Origin: Thermoanaerobaculia bacterium
Lineage (GTDB): Bacteria > Acidobacteriota > Thermoanaerobaculia > Multivoradales > JAIOJS01
Direction: 5' to 3'
Assembly (NCBI GenBank): GCA_030429235.1
Contig: JAUIDB010000003.1
Span: forward strand, 62,001 to 126,000
DNA: 64,000 nucleotides
Of this stretch, positions 1,771 through 14,624 are shown one piece after another. A program made the translations under genes and the position numbers. The notes beneath the pieces were generated by a model. It did not search any database. It was not told the DNA's origin and saw only the letters and a list, made by a program, of their open reading frames with translations. How positions within the stretch are numbered: the first letter of the stretch is position 1; every line of letters starts with the position of its first letter.

Positions 1771-3513
1771 GTGCGCGCGCCCTTACCCCACCTCCTGACC
1801 TTCACCGTTCTGCTCGGCGGTCTCTCCTGCTCCCATCGAGAGGACGCCGACCCGATGGACTGGTACACCGACGTGACCGCCGCGAGCGGACTCGACTTCG
1901 TGCACTTCAACGGGATGTCGGGCGAGCTCTACTTCTCGGAGATCGTGGGTGCCGGCGCGGCGCTCTTCGACGCGGATGGCGACGGCGACCTCGATGCCTA
2001 CCTGGTGCAGGGAGCGATGCTCGGTCCCGGCAAGACGATCGCCGATGCACTCCTTCCGCCCCACGATCCGGGAGCGCTGCACGACCGACTCTTTCGCAAC
2101 CTCTGGGCGGAGAGTGGCGAACTCGCGTTCGAAGACGTAACCGCCGGCAGCGGTCTCGAGGGTGCCACCGGCTACGGCATGGGGGTAGCGGTGGGCGACG
2201 TCAACAACGACGGCCACGCCGATCTGTACCTCACCAACGCCGGTCCCAACCAGCTTTGGATCTCGACCGGAGACCGGACCTTCCGACGGAGCGAGGAGAA
2301 TCCCGAAGTCGCCGACCCACGCTGGTCGACGAGCGCAGCGTTCTTGGACTTCGATCGCGACGGCTGGCTCGATCTCTACGTCGCGAACTACGTGCGCTAC
2401 CGTCCGGAGAACCACAAAGGGTGCCTGGATTCCGCCGGCGCCCCGGAATACTGCGGCCCGCACAGCTTTCCTCCGGAGACCGACCGGCTCTTCCGGAACA
2501 CCGGCAACGGGCGGTTCGAAGACGTGACCGAGAGCTCCGGTATCGGTGCAGAGGCGGGAAGTGGTCTGGGGGTCGTCACCGGCGACTTCGACGGCGACGG
2601 CTGGGTCGATATCTACGTCGGCAACGACCTGATGCGGAATCTACTCTGGATCAATCAGGGGGACGGCACCTTCCGTAACGAAGGGCTGATGTCGGGGACG
2701 GCGGTCGGTGCCCTGGGCAAGGCCGAAGCGACGATGGGAGTGGACGCCGGCGACCTCGACAACGACGGAGACCTCGACCTCTTCATGACCCACCTCGACG
2801 GCGAGACCAACACCCTCTACCTCAACGCCGGCGACGGCCTTTTCCTCGACCACACCGCACGATTGGGGCTGGCGGAGGCCAGCCGTCCCGCCACCGGCTT
2901 CGGCACCGGCATGATCGATGTCGACAACGACGGCTGGCTCGATATCGTGGCCGTCAACGGTGCGGTCAAGGGGCTACCGAGTCAGAAACGTGCGGGAGAA
3001 GTCCTGCCTCTGCGCCAAAGCAATCAGCTGTTCGTCAACGGTGGCGCCAGCAGCTTCAGCGACCAGAGCCTACGGATCCCCGCCTTCGCGCAGGCCGACG
3101 TGAGTCGCGGTCTCGCCGCCGGCGACCTCGACAACGACGGAGACCTCGACCTTCTATTGACCCACAACGCCGCTCCAGCGCAGCTGCTCCGCAATGACAT
3201 CGGGCACAACCGGCCCTGGATCGGCTTCGACCTCGTCGGGGGCGCACGGCGGGTACCCCAAGGTACCGAACTCCGACTGCGGCAGGGTTCGATCGAACTG
3301 CTACGACGCGGCGGCACCGACTCCAGCTACTGTTCGGCCCGTGACCCCCGCGTCGTCCTGGGCCTGGCCTCGCTCGACCTGCCGGCCTCGGCTCAACTCG
3401 AAGTCGAGGTCCGCTGGGAGAACGGTCGCCGCGAGACGTTTCGCGACCTGCAAACCGGTCGGTACCACCCCTTGAAGGAGGGAACGGGAGCGGCGGTGGA
3501 AGCAGATCGATGA
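1771..3513 (+). CDS. CRTAC1-like FG-GAP/VCBS repeat lipoprotein with ASPIC/UnbV domain
   Basis: 580 aa from a GTG start. An N-terminal signal ending in GLSC (Cys20) suggests a lipoprotein, though Leu is not at -3. The body has repeated calcium-binding FG-GAP/VCBS motifs of the form D-x-D-x-D-G-D-x-D, for example at 67-75 and then about every 50-60 residues, predicting an integrin-type beta-propeller. The last 80 residues match ASPIC/UnbV, with the typical VEVRWENGRRE signature. The family is secreted or surface-attached; binding of carbohydrate or protein is assumed, and no enzymatic role is established. It begins a long plus-strand chain and overlaps the next start by ATGA at 3510-3513, so the two are probably translationally coupled. 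Confidence 0.88.
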   Translation: MRAPLPHLLTFTVLLGGLSCSHREDADPMDWYTDVTAASGLDFVHFNGMSGELYFSEIVGAGAALFDADGDGDLDAYLVQGAMLGPGKTIADALLPPHDPGALHDRLFRNLWAESGELAFEDVTAGSGLEGATGYGMGVAVGDVNNDGHADLYLTNAGPNQLWISTGDRTFRRSEENPEVADPRWSTSAAFLDFDRDGWLDLYVANYVRYRPENHKGCLDSAGAPEYCGPHSFPPETDRLFRNTGNGRFEDVTESSGIGAEAGSGLGVVTGDFDGDGWVDIYVGNDLMRNLLWINQGDGTFRNEGLMSGTAVGALGKAEATMGVDAGDLDNDGDLDLFMTHLDGETNTLYLNAGDGLFLDHTARLGLAEASRPATGFGTGMIDVDNDGWLDIVAVNGAVKGLPSQKRAGEVLPLRQSNQLFVNGGASSFSDQSLRIPAFAQADVSRGLAAGDLDNDGDLDLLLTHNAAPAQLLRNDIGHNRPWIGFDLVGGARRVPQGTELRLRQGSIELLRRGGTDSSYCSARDPRVVLGLASLDLPASAQLEVEVRWENGRRETFRDLQTGRYHPLKEGTGAAVEADR

Positions 3514-4682
3514 CCCGCCAGCTCGGCCTGACGCTGTTCCTAGGGCTTCTCGTCGGCTGTGCCCAGCCGGCACCGGAACCGCTGCCCGAGCCTTCCGATC
3601 TCGCGAGTCTCGAGGCTCCGGTACGCCGGCAGTTCGAACAAGCGCACGAGCTGCTCGAACGCCTGCGATCCGACCCGGAGACGCAGCCGGCCCGCCTGGC
3701 GCGAGCCTTTGCCGCGGTGGGCGAGATCCATCTCGCCTACGACCACCTCGAAACCGCCCGTCAGGCCTTCGAAGCCGCGGTGGCGCTAGAGCCGACCGAA
3801 CCCCGGTGGAGCTACCTGTCCGCGCACACGCACTACCAGCTGGGAGAAAACGAAGCCGCTCGAGCGAGATACCGAGCCGTCCTCGAACTGCAACCGAACC
3901 ATGTGCCGACGTTCGTCAGTCTCGCATCCTTGGCCCAACAAGAGGGCAAGGGCCCCAGAGCCGAGGAGTTGCTCGGTAGAGCCCGTGAGCTCGACCCCGG
4001 CAGTTCCCGCGTCCTCGCCGATTTGGCGAGTCTGGCTCTGGAAGGCGACCAGCCCGAGGTGGCAGTCTCCTATCTGCAGGAGGCGTTGATTCACCAACCC
4101 GGAGCATCACAGCTCCACTACCTGCTGGCGATGGCCTACCGAGGCCTCGGAGACGCCAACCGCTCGACCGAGCACCTGGCGAAGGTACGAGCCACGAGCA
4201 CCCAACAGGTGAGCCTGGTGCTCGAAGACGCTTGGCTGGCTCGCGTGCGGTCGCATCGGGTCGGAGCCAGGGTCCACGACCAGCGCGCCCAGCGAGCGCT
4301 CGCGGCCGGCCGGCTCGAGGTGGCCGAACTGGAACTGCGACAGGCCCTGCTCGCGAACCCGGAGCGCCACTACGCTCACTACGGACTGGCCGGAGTCCTC
4401 TTTCGACTCGGCCGTTCCGAGGAAGCCCTGCAGGAGTTGGATACCCTCCTGAACCACGACCCTCGCCACACTCCGAGTCTGGTCCTCCTCGCCCGGATCC
4501 AGCTCGCCCTGGGCCAGACCGCGGCGGCACGCGCCAGCTACCACCGAGCCCAGATCGTGGGGCCCGACGACCCCGAGGTCCAAGAACTCCGTAAGCTGTT
4601 GGAGCAAAGGGCCGGGCTCGAAACAGAAACCGAGCCCGCAGCAACTCCCCCGGAGGCCCCTCCGGGAGCTGGTACACTCTAG
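3510..4682 (+). CDS. TPR-repeat lipoprotein
   Basis: 390 aa. The signal peptide ends in LVGC with Cys17, a good lipobox, so the protein is probably anchored to a periplasmic membrane face. The rest is a run of tetratricopeptide repeats. Successive 34-residue helical pairs with the usual small and aromatic positions are seen from about residue 65 to 205 and again from 260 to 370, separated by a less regular stretch. The C-terminus is rich in Glu, Pro and Ala. TPR solenoids bind peptides or scaffold complexes; here the obvious partners are the flanking CRTAC1-like propellers. The start overlaps the stop of the preceding gene by ATGA. The next gene begins 47 bases downstream. Confidence 0.87.
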   Translation: MTRQLGLTLFLGLLVGCAQPAPEPLPEPSDLASLEAPVRRQFEQAHELLERLRSDPETQPARLARAFAAVGEIHLAYDHLETARQAFEAAVALEPTEPRWSYLSAHTHYQLGENEAARARYRAVLELQPNHVPTFVSLASLAQQEGKGPRAEELLGRARELDPGSSRVLADLASLALEGDQPEVAVSYLQEALIHQPGASQLHYLLAMAYRGLGDANRSTEHLAKVRATSTQQVSLVLEDAWLARVRSHRVGARVHDQRAQRALAAGRLEVAELELRQALLANPERHYAHYGLAGVLFRLGRSEEALQELDTLLNHDPRHTPSLVLLARIQLALGQTAAARASYHRAQIVGPDDPEVQELRKLLEQRAGLETETEPAATPPEAPPGAGTL

Positions 4683-4729: not shown

Positions 4730-7177
4730 ATGACCAGAGACCTCCCCTCCTCTCCCGGCCGCCGCCCGCGCTGGCGGCGGCGAGTGCTACTTCTCGCCCT
4801 GCTGACCCTGGGGGCCGCGGGGGTCTGGGGCACCGTGTCCTGGCAGCGCCTCGAAGCCCAGGCCTTAGACCTCGCCGAGACGGGCCAGGGCGCGATCCAG
4901 TTGCTGTCGAGTCAAGCCAAAGCCATCGCCAACCACGACATCGACGCTCTGGCCGCGGTCTACGCTTCCGGATACGACGGCCTCGTCTTGGGTGATTGGG
5001 ACGAAACCGAGGCCTTCCGGAGGGACGGCATCACGGTGCGAACCTGGCGGGCCAAAGAGGGGGGCACCGGGTCGACGACCGACCGGCTCCAGCGCTTCCT
5101 GGACTCGTTGCACCGCATCGACCACAGCAAGCTCAAACTCGCCTCGGTCGAGGAGTCCGGCGACGGTACGGCGACGATTCGTAGCGTCCTGTGGCTACGG
5201 GGAGCGACCGAAGACGGCACCCACTTCGAGATGCACGGCACCCTGCGCTTTGGTTTACGGTACAGCGAGGACCGCTGGCAAATCGCCGACCAGGCCCTGG
5301 TCTCCGGCGAGACGGTGTTCGGTCCCGGCACCGCCTTCGAGGAGGTCGCGCTCGCTTCGGGACTCGACTTCGTGGCGCAACAGAATCCCAACTTCCGGAC
5401 GCCCGAGTGGGAACCCAAGAAGTTCGGAATCCTCAAGTACGGCTCCGCGGGGGTATCGGCTGCGGACTACGACGGTGACGGTTGGGACGATCTGTTCTTC
5501 GCGGACGGCGCCGACAGCCGGCTCTACCGCAACCAGGCCGACGACACCTTTCGAGATGTCACCGAGGAGGTCGGGTTGCCGACGCCGCTGGTCGGCGTCA
5601 ACGTAGCCCTGTTCGTCGATCTCGACAACGACGGCGATCAGGATCTCTTCCTCGGCGTCTTCACGGGTCCCAACCGGTTGTTCGAGAACGACGGCCAGGG
5701 GCACTACCGCGACGTCACCGACCAGGCCAACCTCGGAGGGAGCATGGTGACGGTCGCCTCCGCCGCCGACTACGACCGCGATGGGCTCCTCGACCTCTAC
5801 GTCGGCCGCTACCTCGACCCTCGGACGGAACTCCCTGACACCTTGTTCTACACCCGGAACGGTGAAGGCAACAGCCTGTTGCGAAACCTCGGCGGCCTCC
5901 GGTTCGAGGACGTGACCGATCGCGCCGGGGTCCGCGAAGGTGGTCTCACGCTGGGTGTCGCCTGGGCGGACTACGACGACGACGGCGACGACGACCTCTA
6001 CGTCGCCAACGACTTCGGTCGCAACGCGCTGCTCCGCAACGAAGGCGACGGTACCTTTCGCGACGTCTCCGAGGCCACCAATTCGCTCGACTTCGGCTTT
6101 GGCATGAGCGCGACCTGGGGCGACATCGACAACGACGGCGACTTCGACCTGTACACCTCGAACGTGCACTCGGGCCAGCGCTGGTACGGTCAAGCAGCGA
6201 CGCTGCAGCAGTACCTTCTGACCAGTATCCGCCAGGGCACGATCTTCGAGGACTACCCCCTCTACCGCGAGATCTACGGCTACGCAGGCTCCGACTGGCG
6301 CGACTACGGCGACCGCATGGTCAAGGGCAACTCCCTACTGGTCTTGGGTGAAGACGGCAGATTCGAGGACATCAGCGAACGAGCCCACACCAATCCTTAC
6401 GGCTGGTATTGGGGCTCGGGAATGCTCGACTACGACTACGACGGACGTCTCGATATCTATGCCGCCAACGGATGGATCACGGGGCGAACCACGGACGACT
6501 TGTGACTGCCCTACATCCTGAGCGCGGTCGCGCACATCGACGAGTACAAGACGGGACGCTTCTACAGCGACGATTACCGCGGTAGCGCCTCCTGGAACGG
6601 ATACGAGACCAACGTCTTGCTGCGCAACGAAGGAGAGGTTTCCGGCCAGCTTCGGTTTACCGATGTCGGCCTCGCCACGGGCAGCGACGATCTGCAGGAC
6701 TCACGCGGTTTCGCCGTCGCCGACTTCGACCGCGACGGTGACCTCGACCTGGCGGTCAACCACAACCCTGGCGACGCCAACCGGCCTGAACTGGGACAGG
6801 CCCGCCTCTACCGCAACGAGCTCGCGCAGGACAAACCGTGGATTGCGCTCGAGCTCGAAGGGACTGTCGACAATCGGGACGGAGTGGGCGCTGTGGTCCG
6901 CGTCTCCAGCGGTGATCTCGTGCAGACCCGCCGTCTCGAAGCCGGAAGCGGCTACGCTTCGCAGCACGGCCACCGCCTCTACTTCGGCCTGGGAGGGTCC
7001 ACGGAGGTGCATCGGATCAGCGTGCGCTGGCCGAACGGCGACGTCGAGGAGCTCGACCAACCCCTCGCTGCCGGTGCCAGCTACCGACTGCGGCAGGGCC
7101 AGGTGAGTTCGCCGGAACCGATGCTCCCCCCCGCTTCGACACCCGAGTCCGCGGACGAGTCAGTCGACAGACGATGA
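4730..7177 (+). CDS. CRTAC1-like FG-GAP/ASPIC-UnbV protein with one in-frame TGA (candidate selenoprotein, or single-base nonsense mutation)
   Basis: The frame runs 816 codons from ATG 4730 to TGA 7175-7177, broken only by TGA at 6503-6505 (codon 592). Domain order is: N-terminal membrane anchor or signal (about 20-38); an NTF2/SnoaL-like domain (about 50-200); FG-GAP/VCBS repeats such as DYDGDGWDDL, DLDNDGDQDL and DYDRDGLLDL; then an ASPIC/UnbV end (about 720-800). Sequence on both sides of the TGA is clearly one protein: the repeat DYDYDGRLDI lies just before it, and DFDRDGDLDL and UnbV come after, with no frame change. Either UGA is read (Sec is the usual meaning) or a recent mutation truncates the protein before two conserved domains. 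TGA is a normal stop elsewhere in the window, so genome-wide recoding is unlikely. The last four bases overlap the acyltransferase start. Confidence 0.8.
6503..6536 (+). other. In-frame TGA followed by a SECIS-like stem-loop
   Basis: The TGA occupies 6503-6505. Twenty bases later a hairpin forms: GCGC (6522-6525), loop GGTC (6526-6529), GCGC (6530-6533). An A-A mismatch and two further pairs (G6520-C6535, T6519-A6536) extend it. Bacterial SECIS elements sit within the coding region shortly after UGA, with an apical loop carrying G at its start; the E. coli fdhF element has a GGUC loop at a similar distance. A four-pair GC stem can arise by chance in DNA of this composition, so the structure supports the Sec reading but does not prove it. 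Confidence 0.4.
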
Positions 7178-8742
7178 CCTCCCTGCTCCGAGTCGTCGGC
7201 GGAGTCCAGGGAATCGCCGAGGACCTGGCGCGGGAGCTTCAACTCCGGGATCAGCGGACCTGGCAGGCCACGGCCGGGCTGGGCGAACTCGCCGACAGTA
7301 CCGCGGTCATCTACGTGGCCGCCGACCGAGCGCCCCGAGCGCGGCCAGACCCCGACGACCTTCGCGACTTCCTGCGCCGCGTCGAGACCGTGCCCATGGT
7401 CCTGATCATCGCCAGCGCCGCCCGCTTCGATCCCACCCCCCACCACCCCGGGTTGGTCGGTCCGGACTACGCCGGACGGCACGCAAGCAACCCGATCGCC
7501 CACGCCTGGCAAACCTTCGAAGGCTCGCTCGACACCCAGCCATTCCCGCGAGGCCAGCGGAGGGTCGTGATCCGCGTCCCCTCGCTGGTCCCCTCGTCCT
7601 CCGGGCCGGGTTACTGCAACCCGGGGTTCGGCGACCTCCTGAGCGGTCGCCGGAGTTGGACCGCGCTCGGCCACGATCCGCCTCTCCAGTGGATCGAGGT
7701 ACCGCAACTGGCCGAGCAGATCCTCCGAGTGCTGCGCTGCCCCCCGCCCGAGGCCACGGACCTGGTCCATCTCGCACCGGCCGGGCAGACCGCTCGTCTC
7801 AGCCGGGTGCTCCGCCGCCGCGCCATTCGCCGGTGGCGGCTGCCGGTTTCCTTGAGCCTGCTCTGGGACCGGCTGACCGGCCGGAGGGGATCCACCGACT
7901 ATCGGCGCTACCCCGTCACACTCCTGGAAGCCGAGGGGGATGGCGTCCCCGAGACCCTGTCGCAGGAGGACCCGTTCGGTCTCGACCGTGCCTACATCGA
8001 CCGCCTGGGCCGGACCCTGTTTCGGGCTCTGCACGACCTCTACTGGCGGATCGAACTCGCGGGCCTCGACCGGGTTCCAAAGCAGGGCGGCGCGGTCCTG
8101 GTCGGGGTCCACCGCGGCTTCCAGCCTTGGGACGGTGTGATGACGATGCACGCCATCGCTCGCCGGCAGGGCCGCTATCTTCGGTTTCTGATCCACCCCT
8201 CTCTAGTGAAACTTCCCTTCCTCGAGCCTTTCATGCGACGGCTCGGAGGGGTGCTGGCTCACAGCGACAACGCCGACTGGGTGCTCGAGCGGGGCCACCT
8301 ACTGGGGGTCTACCCCGAGGGAATTCGTGGCGCTTTCACTCCCTACCGGAAGGCCTACCGGATCCCACGCCTGGGGCGAGGAGAGTTCATTCAACTGGCG
8401 ATTCGCCACCAGGTCCCGATCGTCCCTTTCGTGACCGTCGGGAGTGCCGAGATCTTCCCGATCGTGGCCCGTTTTCGCTGGCCGGCCTTCTCCCGCTATA
8501 CGCTTTGGCCCTGGTTTCCCATCACGACTCCACTCCCGCTCCCATCGAAATGGCACACCGAATTCCTCGAACCGATCCCGACGCGCGACCACTACGATCC
8601 AGAATCAGCCGACGACCCCCACCAGGTGCGTCAGCTCCACGACCTGGTTCTGGAACGGATGCGCCAGTCGATGCAGCGCCAGCTCGCAGCTCGGCCCTCT
8701 CGCTTCTGGGGCGACATCTTCGACGACGAGGTCGCGCCATGA
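7174..8742 (+). CDS. Fusion of a nucleoside-diphosphate-sugar epimerase-like domain and a PlsC-type acyltransferase
   Basis: 522 aa. The first 200 residues resemble a worn SDR/epimerase-type domain: hydrophobic strands (VPMVLIIASAA) and a VIRVPSLVP segment occur, but I see no clean glycine-rich NAD motif. The C-terminal half is a lysophospholipid acyltransferase: an N-terminal VHRGFQPWDG block with catalytic His and Asp in the spaced form seen in distant PlsC relatives, then GVYPEG about 65 residues later, then VPIVPFVTVGSAEIF. It probably acylates a lipid precursor at the cytoplasmic membrane. It overlaps both neighbours by ATGA (7174-7177 and 8739-8742), which places it in one translation-coupled chain with the CRTAC1-like and thioredoxin genes. 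The acceptor is unknown. Confidence 0.82.
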   Translation: MTSLLRVVGGVQGIAEDLARELQLRDQRTWQATAGLGELADSTAVIYVAADRAPRARPDPDDLRDFLRRVETVPMVLIIASAARFDPTPHHPGLVGPDYAGRHASNPIAHAWQTFEGSLDTQPFPRGQRRVVIRVPSLVPSSSGPGYCNPGFGDLLSGRRSWTALGHDPPLQWIEVPQLAEQILRVLRCPPPEATDLVHLAPAGQTARLSRVLRRRAIRRWRLPVSLSLLWDRLTGRRGSTDYRRYPVTLLEAEGDGVPETLSQEDPFGLDRAYIDRLGRTLFRALHDLYWRIELAGLDRVPKQGGAVLVGVHRGFQPWDGVMTMHAIARRQGRYLRFLIHPSLVKLPFLEPFMRRLGGVLAHSDNADWVLERGHLLGVYPEGIRGAFTPYRKAYRIPRLGRGEFIQLAIRHQVPIVPFVTVGSAEIFPIVARFRWPAFSRYTLWPWFPITTPLPLPSKWHTEFLEPIPTRDHYDPESADDPHQVRQLHDLVLERMRQSMQRQLAARPSRFWGDIFDDEVAP

Positions 8743-9242
8743 CTCGCTGCGCCCCGAAGATCTCGACCTGGGTGGGGGTGATGCTCCTGGTCATCGCGAG
8801 TTGGAGCTGTAGCGGCCCCGCCACGCCCCCTCTCGCGGTCGGACACGAAGCACCTCACTTCGACCTCCCTGCCATCGACGGCGGATCCTGGTCGAGCCGG
8901 CAGCTCCTCGGCCAACCCTCCATCGTGGTCTTCTGGGCCACCTGGTGCCTGCCCTGCCACGAGGAGATTCCCCTCCTCAACTCGATCGCCTCATCGGGAG
9001 CGGCCCGCGTGGTTTCGATCAGCCTCGACGAAAAGGGAACCCAGGCGGTCGCCCCGTTTCTGCTGGAACACCCGCTCGAGTACCCAGTGCTCCTGGGTGA
9101 CGAGAAGGTGTTTCGTCGTTGGGATGGCCTGACGATTCCCTACACGCTGATCCTCGATGCGGACTTCGTCGTGGTCGGCAAGTTCCGAGGACGGCTCGAT
9201 CCCGCCGAGGCCTGGGACCTGGTCGGGGGACGTCCCGAGTGA
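8739..9242 (+). CDS. TlpA-like thioredoxin-fold lipoprotein
   Basis: 167 aa, from the ATG overlapping the previous stop (ATGA 8739-8742). The N-terminus is a signal ending in ASWSC, a probable lipidated Cys. The thioredoxin domain has VVFWATWCLPCHEEIPLL with redox cysteines C70 and C73, and the cis-Pro segment IPYTLILD further on. It belongs to the TlpA/ResA/AlkD-thioredoxin-like group of periplasmic thiol-disulfide oxidoreductases, which reduce cysteines in exported proteins such as apocytochromes. Its place beside CRTAC1-like and TPR lipoproteins suggests that one of these exported proteins could be its client; this is inference. The stop overlaps the next start (GTGA). Confidence 0.88.
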   Translation: MTRCAPKISTWVGVMLLVIASWSCSGPATPPLAVGHEAPHFDLPAIDGGSWSSRQLLGQPSIVVFWATWCLPCHEEIPLLNSIASSGAARVVSISLDEKGTQAVAPFLLEHPLEYPVLLGDEKVFRRWDGLTIPYTLILDADFVVVGKFRGRLDPAEAWDLVGGRPE

Positions 9243-12878: not shown

Positions 12879-14624
12879 ATGCAGCGCTTTGATGTCGCCA
12901 TCGTGGGCGCTGGCCTCGCCGGATTGACCCTCGCCCGCCAGCTAGTGCGGGAAACGGACAAGAGCGTGGCCATCCTCGAACGTCGGCCAGCCCCCTCCGA
13001 TCGACCCAAGGTCGGAGAGTCCACCGTCCAGCTCGCCGGCTACTACCTGTCGCGGGTGCTCGGTCTCGAGCGACTTCTCTTCGACGAGCACTACCTCAAG
13101 TACAACCTGCGGTTCTACTGGCCCGCCGAGGGACTTTCGGGCGACGCCTTCGAGCACTACTCGCAGTGTTATCTGCGCCGAATCTCGAACCTGTGCAGCT
13201 TCCAGATCGACCGTGGCCGCTTCGAGCAGTCACTCTACGAGGAACTCTCCCGCGAGCCGCAGGTCACTCTCGTCGCTGCGGTCGAGGGACTCGACGTGAC
13301 GATCCAGCCAGGGAGTACCCCGCATCAGGTGCACTTCCAGCACAACGGAGAGGTCGAGCAGTTCGAGGCCACCTGGCTGGTCGATGCTTCCGGTCGCCGT
13401 CGCCTCCTCCAGAAGAAACTCGGCCTCCAGCAGAAGAGCCCGGTGCGCCACGGCGCTTCCTTCCTCTGGGTCGAAGGCAACGTCGATATCGAACGGCTCA
13501 CGGCCCGCAGTCACCGCGCTACGCGACTGGACCCGCGGCGGTCCGAGGTCGGCCACATGCCCCTCTGGATGGCCACCAACCACTTCATGGGCGAGGGCTG
13601 GTGGTTGTGGGTGATTCCGCTGCGACAGCGCACCAGTCTCGGTCTGGTCTTCGACCATCGGGTGGTGGAGTTCTCGGAGGTGTCGAGCGCCGACCGTCTC
13701 CTCGACTGGGTCGATACCCACCTGCCCCTGTTTTCGTCCGATCTCCGGGCCCGCACGGTGATCGGTCACGCGGGCTTCCGCGACTACGCTTACGACACTC
13801 GGTTGAGCCTGAGTCCGGACCGCTGGGCGGCGACGGGCGAAGCCGCCCGCTTCTCGGATCCCCTGTACAGCCCGGGCTCGGACTTGATCGCGTTGCACAA
13901 CACGATGATCGTGGACTGCATCGAACGAGACTCCAGCGACGACCTCACGGTCCTGTGTCGCCGCCGTGAGGCACTGCTCCAGGCCCTACACGACGCCTAC
14001 CTGCCCTCCTACCATCGATCCTACGACGCCCTGGGTGATGCCGAGACCTTCGCCATGAAGTACGGGTGGGAGCTGGCGATCTACTTCGCCTTCTACGTGT
14101 TCCCCTTCATCAACGATCTCTTCTCCGAGGACCGCTTCCTGCCCGCCTTTCTGCGTCGCTTCGCTCAACTCGGTCAGCTCAACGCCAACGTCCAGGCTCT
14201 CGTCTCGGGCTACTTCCAATGGAAGAAGCAACAGGGGATGACGGCAGGCCCGATCGTCGACTTCGAACTCTCGAAGCTTGCACCGGTGCGGCGAGCCGAG
14301 CGCTGCTTCTATCGGGTCGGGATCGATGCCGACACCGCGCGATCGATCCTCGACGAACAGCTGGCCGGGCTCGAAGAGTTCAGCCGGTTTCTCGTGGCGC
14401 ACGTCGCCGCCGTGGTTCTGGATCGGGCCGCGGCCAAGCGCGACCGAGGGTTCGTAGCCGCCTTGAATCTCGAAGCTCCGGACTTCGATCGGGCCGCTCT
14501 CGAGAAGCTCTGGTCGCAGCACGCGGACGGGGAGGAGGCGACCTGGAGCTTCGACACCACGGCCCTGGATCTCTTCCACCAACCCGCGGCCCCGCTTGCG
14601 ACCCATCGGAAGGCCGGCGGATGA
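12879..14624 (+). CDS. Flavin-dependent halogenase-like FAD oxidoreductase
   Basis: 581 aa. The N-terminus has the FAD-binding GxGxxG as GAGLAG (10-15), followed by an acidic strand end in AILERR. A KVGEST block (44-49) matches the conserved segment of flavin halogenases and related reductases. The halogenase signature WxWxIP is present as W242-L-W244-V-I246-P247 within WWLWVIP. A later SDPLYSPGSD segment matches the usual FAD-contact loop. This set is typical of tryptophan-halogenase-like enzymes, which form hypohalite from FADH2, oxygen and halide; many relatives have unknown substrates and some may not halogenate. The stop overlaps the carotenoid oxygenase start by ATGA, so the two enzymes are coupled and probably act on one metabolite. 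A geranylgeranyl-reductase-like role is the alternative. Confidence 0.82.
   Translation: MQRFDVAIVGAGLAGLTLARQLVRETDKSVAILERRPAPSDRPKVGESTVQLAGYYLSRVLGLERLLFDEHYLKYNLRFYWPAEGLSGDAFEHYSQCYLRRISNLCSFQIDRGRFEQSLYEELSREPQVTLVAAVEGLDVTIQPGSTPHQVHFQHNGEVEQFEATWLVDASGRRRLLQKKLGLQQKSPVRHGASFLWVEGNVDIERLTARSHRATRLDPRRSEVGHMPLWMATNHFMGEGWWLWVIPLRQRTSLGLVFDHRVVEFSEVSSADRLLDWVDTHLPLFSSDLRARTVIGHAGFRDYAYDTRLSLSPDRWAATGEAARFSDPLYSPGSDLIALHNTMIVDCIERDSSDDLTVLCRRREALLQALHDAYLPSYHRSYDALGDAETFAMKYGWELAIYFAFYVFPFINDLFSEDRFLPAFLRRFAQLGQLNANVQALVSGYFQWKKQQGMTAGPIVDFELSKLAPVRRAERCFYRVGIDADTARSILDEQLAGLEEFSRFLVAHVAAVVLDRAAAKRDRGFVAALNLEAPDFDRAALEKLWSQHADGEEATWSFDTTALDLFHQPAAPLATHRKAGG

Follow-up and report, generated by a model that had tools for sequence, protein, structure and literature searches.

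The analysed stretch of DNA (below called the window, 64,000 nucleotides at its full length) contains a gene interrupted by one in-frame TGA codon, with conserved protein domains before and after it. The question is whether this codon ends the protein or is read as an amino acid and, if it is read, as which one and for what function.

The interrupted gene and its surroundings

Translation of positions 4730–7180 gave a product of 815 residues with a single internal in-frame stop in the gene 4730–7177 (+), the TGA of codon 592 at 6503–6505, as expected from the earlier description of one continuous gene with a sole internal stop. Also the described overlap with the following gene was found, the terminal TGA (7175–7177) overlapping the next ATG as ATGA, with the next gene starting from 7174 (Table 1). 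The domain search agreed with the claim that FG-GAP precedes the TGA and FG-GAP and UnbV follow it: FG-GAP repeats were present on both sides and UnbV_ASPIC at residues 718–778. The Pfam scores, 139.8 bits for FG-GAP (cut-off 26.9) and 58.9 bits for UnbV_ASPIC (cut-off 23.4), place the protein in the CRTAC1/ASPIC-UnbV family. Apart from the Sec592 position the protein does not include any Cys. It has an N-terminal hydrophobic stretch, which suggests that it is extracytoplasmic or anchored.

Table 1. Features of the window around the interrupted gene.
Feature	Position	Strand	Basis
Predicted selenoprotein gene, FG-GAP propeller and UnbV/ASPIC, 815 aa, Sec592	4730..7177	+	translation, Pfam
In-frame UGA, predicted Sec codon 592	6503..6505	+	UGA in matching column of all close orthologues and two other subfamilies
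Putative bSECIS core: apical GGUC loop, 20 nt past UGA, on a GCGC stem	6522..6533	+	conservation, covariation
Acyltransferase-domain gene (PF01553), ATGA overlap with predicted selenoprotein gene	7174..8742	+	
TlpA-like thioredoxin (FWATWCLPC; AhpC-TSA, Redoxin), may reduce Sec592; start overlaps the acyltransferase gene (ATGA)	8739..9242	+	
TPR protein, directly upstream of predicted selenoprotein gene	3510..4682	+	
Non-Sec paralogue: FG-GAP/UnbV protein without internal stop	1771..3513	+	

Further downstream, positions 12879–14624 of the window encode a tryptophan-halogenase-like FAD protein, located downstream of an ABC1-kinase-domain gene (PF03109). The genome is strongly expanded in the FG-GAP/UnbV superfamily, with 46 matches, dozens of them beyond the upstream paralogue of the window.

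At first sight, a lone in-frame stop in a single draft genome resembles a true stop, left in a decayed or split pseudogene or produced by a sequencing error in the assembly. However, when compared with a same-genus orthologue, pN/pS was 0.32 downstream of the UGA and 0.23 upstream, and the downstream value shows that this part is under protein constraint, i.e. purifying selection.

The UGA column, the hairpin and the decoding machinery

The same-order comparison covered 58 other genomes, and orthologue copies were counted in 11 of them. All of the 12 copies, with identities of 60–77%, had TGA at codon 592 of the window gene. In the close orthologues this was the sole in-frame TGA of the aligned part, with the exception of one locus (L033) in which a second TGA was present 216 codons downstream, close to the end of the match. 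TGA was found in the same column also in a divergent paralogue of the window's own genome, 39–41% identical. This paralogue (L002, G000:C16:101460-103247) appears to be a second selenoprotein of the same superfamily; its SECIS has a GGTC loop on a 7-bp stem, and a TlpA domain (WCTAC) is fused to the protein.

Three Sec-bearing subfamilies were recognisable. Subfamily I, with the motif DLULPYILSAVAHI, includes the window gene, and subfamily II (DLULPF..GAVAH) is often encoded immediately upstream of subfamily I. Seven loci (L074, L075, L077, L158–L161) carry such tandem genes of subfamilies II and I, followed in most cases by a TlpA gene. The largest, subfamily III (DLUSFFWRQV or DTUSIFWRQV), has UGA in the great majority of its members and occurs in Acidobacteriota, Planctomycetota and Verrucomicrobiota. 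Altogether, dozens of relatives in these phyla have UGA in the column, and an independent phylum sample of 149 genomes left this picture unchanged. A highly divergent UGA paralogue (DLUSDLWRAV; second site of L104, ~4023–4030) with a thioredoxin-like MATWCPVC motif in a Verrucomicrobiota genome suggests yet more subfamilies.

The nonsense change or sequencing error considered as an alternative in the earlier note is ruled out, as dozens of independent genomes have the identical UGA. The note's selenoprotein interpretation stood, and what did not stand was its framing as a single candidate, the family being large and spread over at least three phyla.

The GGTC hairpin claimed to start 16 bases after the TGA was confirmed. 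It consists of GCGC at 6522–6525, the GGTC loop at 6526–6529 and GCGC at 6530–6533. The published bSECIS model describes a hairpin with an apical-loop G at 16–37 nt and an energy threshold of -7.5. The apical-loop G of the window hairpin lies within this range. The 4-bp stem alone has an energy of -5.1 kcal/mol (-8.3 for the 50-nt region) and misses the published limit; it is weak alone, yet conserved far beyond chance. An Rfam search of the window region gave no SECIS match.

In subfamilies I and II the full GGTC-loop hairpin was present in 24 of 24 sites, when 0.71 were expected from synonymous-codon resampling, which drew on each gene's own codon usage and compared each gene only with itself. 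The variable stem pair of these subfamilies occupies two wobble positions, which change jointly between C–G and U–A in all sequences (9 and 6 of 15, respectively). All six pairs were kept in 55 of the 71 UGA sites of subfamily III (2.9 expected), and covariation in this subfamily amounted to 20 doubly changed cells, compared with 2.7 in shuffles and with none of the 500 shuffles reaching as high a value. Among non-UGA homologues with a nearly identical peptide, only two of 28 had the full hairpin (Fisher 7.5e-11 against the UGA sites; the SECIS p-values come from related sequences and are uncorrected for phylogeny, while the synonymous-codon control works within genes). The hairpin is kept with the UGA and lost without it, and thus the RNA structure is selected together with, and essentially only with, the UGA. 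Its conservation, its compensatory changes and its absence from most non-UGA homologues bear out the earlier idea that it could act as a bacterial SECIS. They also argue against a true stop, a reading left with practically negligible probability by a structure selected specifically where UGA occurs, by the purifying selection on the downstream half and by a UGA sharing its column across many independent genomes and subfamilies.

All four genes that the earlier note had proposed to look for were present in the window's own genome: tRNA-Sec (selC; 72.9 bits, anticodon tca), selB (338.9 bits), selA (439.2 bits) and, at a contig end, selD (314.6 bits). In the same-order set, selB scored above the curated cut-off in 54 of 59 genomes. 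Among the UGA-bearing genomes of the public collection, selB was found in 23 of 29 and tRNA-Sec in three more. The remaining three, with neither, are probably incomplete assemblies. The presence of selB did not separate the two groups (23/29 UGA genomes, 13/20 non-UGA genomes), and many non-UGA Terriglobia presumably retain the machinery for other selenoproteins.

A DNA sequence does not show how a codon is decoded, and Sec is not indicated by any Cys homologue, so that a suppressor tRNA or programmed readthrough could in principle place another amino acid at the UGA. The complete selABCD set of the genome and the SelB-type GGUC hairpin, similar to that of E. coli fdhF and within the distance range of the bSECIS model, make such a readthrough very improbable. 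The comparative evidence shows that the UGA at 6503–6505 is read as an amino acid, and all signs indicate Sec, since a matching UGA column, a conserved SECIS and complete machinery are found together. SelB and tRNA-Sec would then decode the codon, directed by the GGUC-loop SECIS downstream of it.

Sec replacement, the proposed thioredoxin partner and predicted function

The column of codon 592, which the earlier note had suggested to compare, contained UGA in every close homologue and no Trp, Arg or Cys elsewhere. The non-UGA homologues had Asn, Ser, Gln, Asp, Ala, Met, Glu or Gly. The expected exchange between Cys and Sec was thus not borne out, Cys being absent from the column in all homologues compared. 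Cys homologues at the Sec column, the usual but not obligatory criterion of a selenoprotein, are therefore missing from this family, which would explain why searches based on Cys/Sec pairs have missed it. Trp and Arg, named together with Gly as residues speaking against Sec, were unseen. Gly occurred once, in the non-Sec homologue L178, whose thioredoxin motif is degenerate, and does not refute Sec in the UGA-bearing members. The non-Sec group is also altered at the Glu after CxxC and at Ser and His of the UnbV region. A subfamily in which Glu takes the position of Sec (TEIELDFF; L036, L038, L039, L056, L172–L174) sometimes shares a genome with the Sec subfamilies, and no fused thioredoxin was found in the stretches of it seen.

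The earlier guess of a TlpA-like partner encoded two genes downstream gained support from conserved synteny and gene fusion. A TlpA-like gene was present on the same strand, 2.4–2.9 kb downstream, in nine of the 12 subfamily I loci whose flanking sequence was long enough. In subfamily III a thioredoxin domain is fused in frame at the C-terminal end, ~265 codons past the Sec. The CxxC of this domain was intact in 48 of the 51 Sec proteins and in none of the 17 non-Sec proteins. One of the three Sec proteins in which it was not intact is cut short at a contig end; L097 and L112 have Sec but no intact CxxC. The tree shows about two losses of Sec, one in a clade of Terriglobia and the other in a single Planctomycetota sequence, and the correlation between Sec and CxxC therefore represents about two independent events, both in one direction; the phylum sample showed a matching split.

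The AlphaFold2 model of the window protein had a pTM of 0.76, with local confidence of 51–76 near the Sec. In the model a helix begins exactly at residue 592, in a loop of lower confidence that follows a propeller strand. The best PDB match was murine CRTAC1 (9etn), with a profile E-value of 1.6e-35 and a Foldseek E-value of 8.1e-30 (TM 0.74 on target).

The best explanation, with a probability of roughly 0.8, is a full-length CRTAC1-like selenoprotein with a predicted single redox selenol, acting outside the cytoplasm and recycled by TlpA. Sec592, at the N-terminus of the predicted short helix on a propeller loop, would be the single catalytic selenol, as it is the only Sec or Cys of the protein. 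The N-terminal hydrophobic stretch and the TlpA partner are consistent with action outside the cytoplasm. The TlpA-like thioredoxin, encoded two genes downstream in the window and as a C-terminal fusion in subfamily III, would recycle Sec592, and the enzyme is most likely a thioredoxin-dependent reductase or peroxidase. Trp and Gln near the Sec of subfamily III had suggested an analogy to the catalytic tetrad of glutathione peroxidase, which was abandoned since those residues are missing from subfamilies I and II. A CRTAC1 family gene has been reported from hydrazine-synthase-like gene clusters of anammox relatives (PMC12758564).

The main functional rival accepts the selenoprotein but takes Sec592 as a ligand of a metal, e.g. 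copper or iron, on the propeller, with the TlpA-like domain as a metallochaperone or as reductant of the site. Metal coordination by Sec is known from formate dehydrogenase and NiFeSe hydrogenase (PMC13188914), and motifs of metal-binding type (Dx[DN]xDG) occur in the FG-GAP propeller. The window protein, with Sec as its sole residue of the Cys/Sec type, has no resolving Cys, nor does a Cys homologue back a redox role by exchange. The classical WCxPC of the partner, however, is kept in most Sec members and lost together with Sec, which suits thiol exchange better and makes the ligand role rather unlikely.

Relation to catalogued selenoproteins and to CRTAC1

The FG-GAP/UnbV/CRTAC1 family is absent from the 119 families and subfamilies in Table 1 of a 2026 selenoprotein review (PMC13188914), and NCBIfam 20.0 includes no model for a CRTAC1-like selenoprotein family. 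The literature searched for selenoproteins with FG-GAP, UnbV, CRTAC1 or VCBS, its coverage being incomplete, contained nothing relevant. The odds are about even that these genes form a widespread, uncatalogued superfamily of extracytoplasmic propeller selenoenzymes, very broadly distributed, with several paralogous subfamilies in three or more phyla and with a catalytic Sec that Cys never replaces; after a loss of Sec the position would drift to residues such as Asn, Ser and Gln, and the partner would lose its CxxC. If so, the family would carry out chemistry beyond the reach of cysteine on a scaffold unused by catalogued selenoproteins. As it stands, the predicted family is a large addition to the bacterial selenoproteome, in phyla with little-studied selenium biology. 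In those genomes, annotation probably lists many CRTAC1-like genes as truncated or split. The missing Cys homologues provide a concrete reason why pair-based methods would overlook such families, and the joint decay of Sec and of the thioredoxin motif opens a way, accessible to direct tests, to finding a first function of UnbV/CRTAC1 proteins in bacteria.

Known bacterial selenoprotein families share with the window family the in-frame UGA, the downstream bSECIS and the SelA/SelB/tRNA-Sec/SelD machinery, but most of them have a thioredoxin-like fold, UxxC or CxxU motifs and Cys homologues. The SECIS of E. coli fdhF likewise has a GGUC apical loop, 18 nt past the UGA (17–20 nt in the window family), whereas the window-type stem has just 4 bp and the gene families are unrelated. 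Like the extracytoplasmic thioredoxins of the TlpA/AhpC-TSA type, the downstream gene and the fused domain have the WCxPC motif; here the thioredoxin stands beside a selenoprotein propeller and degenerates where the homologues have lost Sec. Murine CRTAC1 (9etn) shares the FG-GAP propeller and UnbV/ASPIC, with 17% identity in the fold alignment, while in the window family an inserted propeller loop carries the predicted Sec, and TlpA is present as a partner or as a fused domain.
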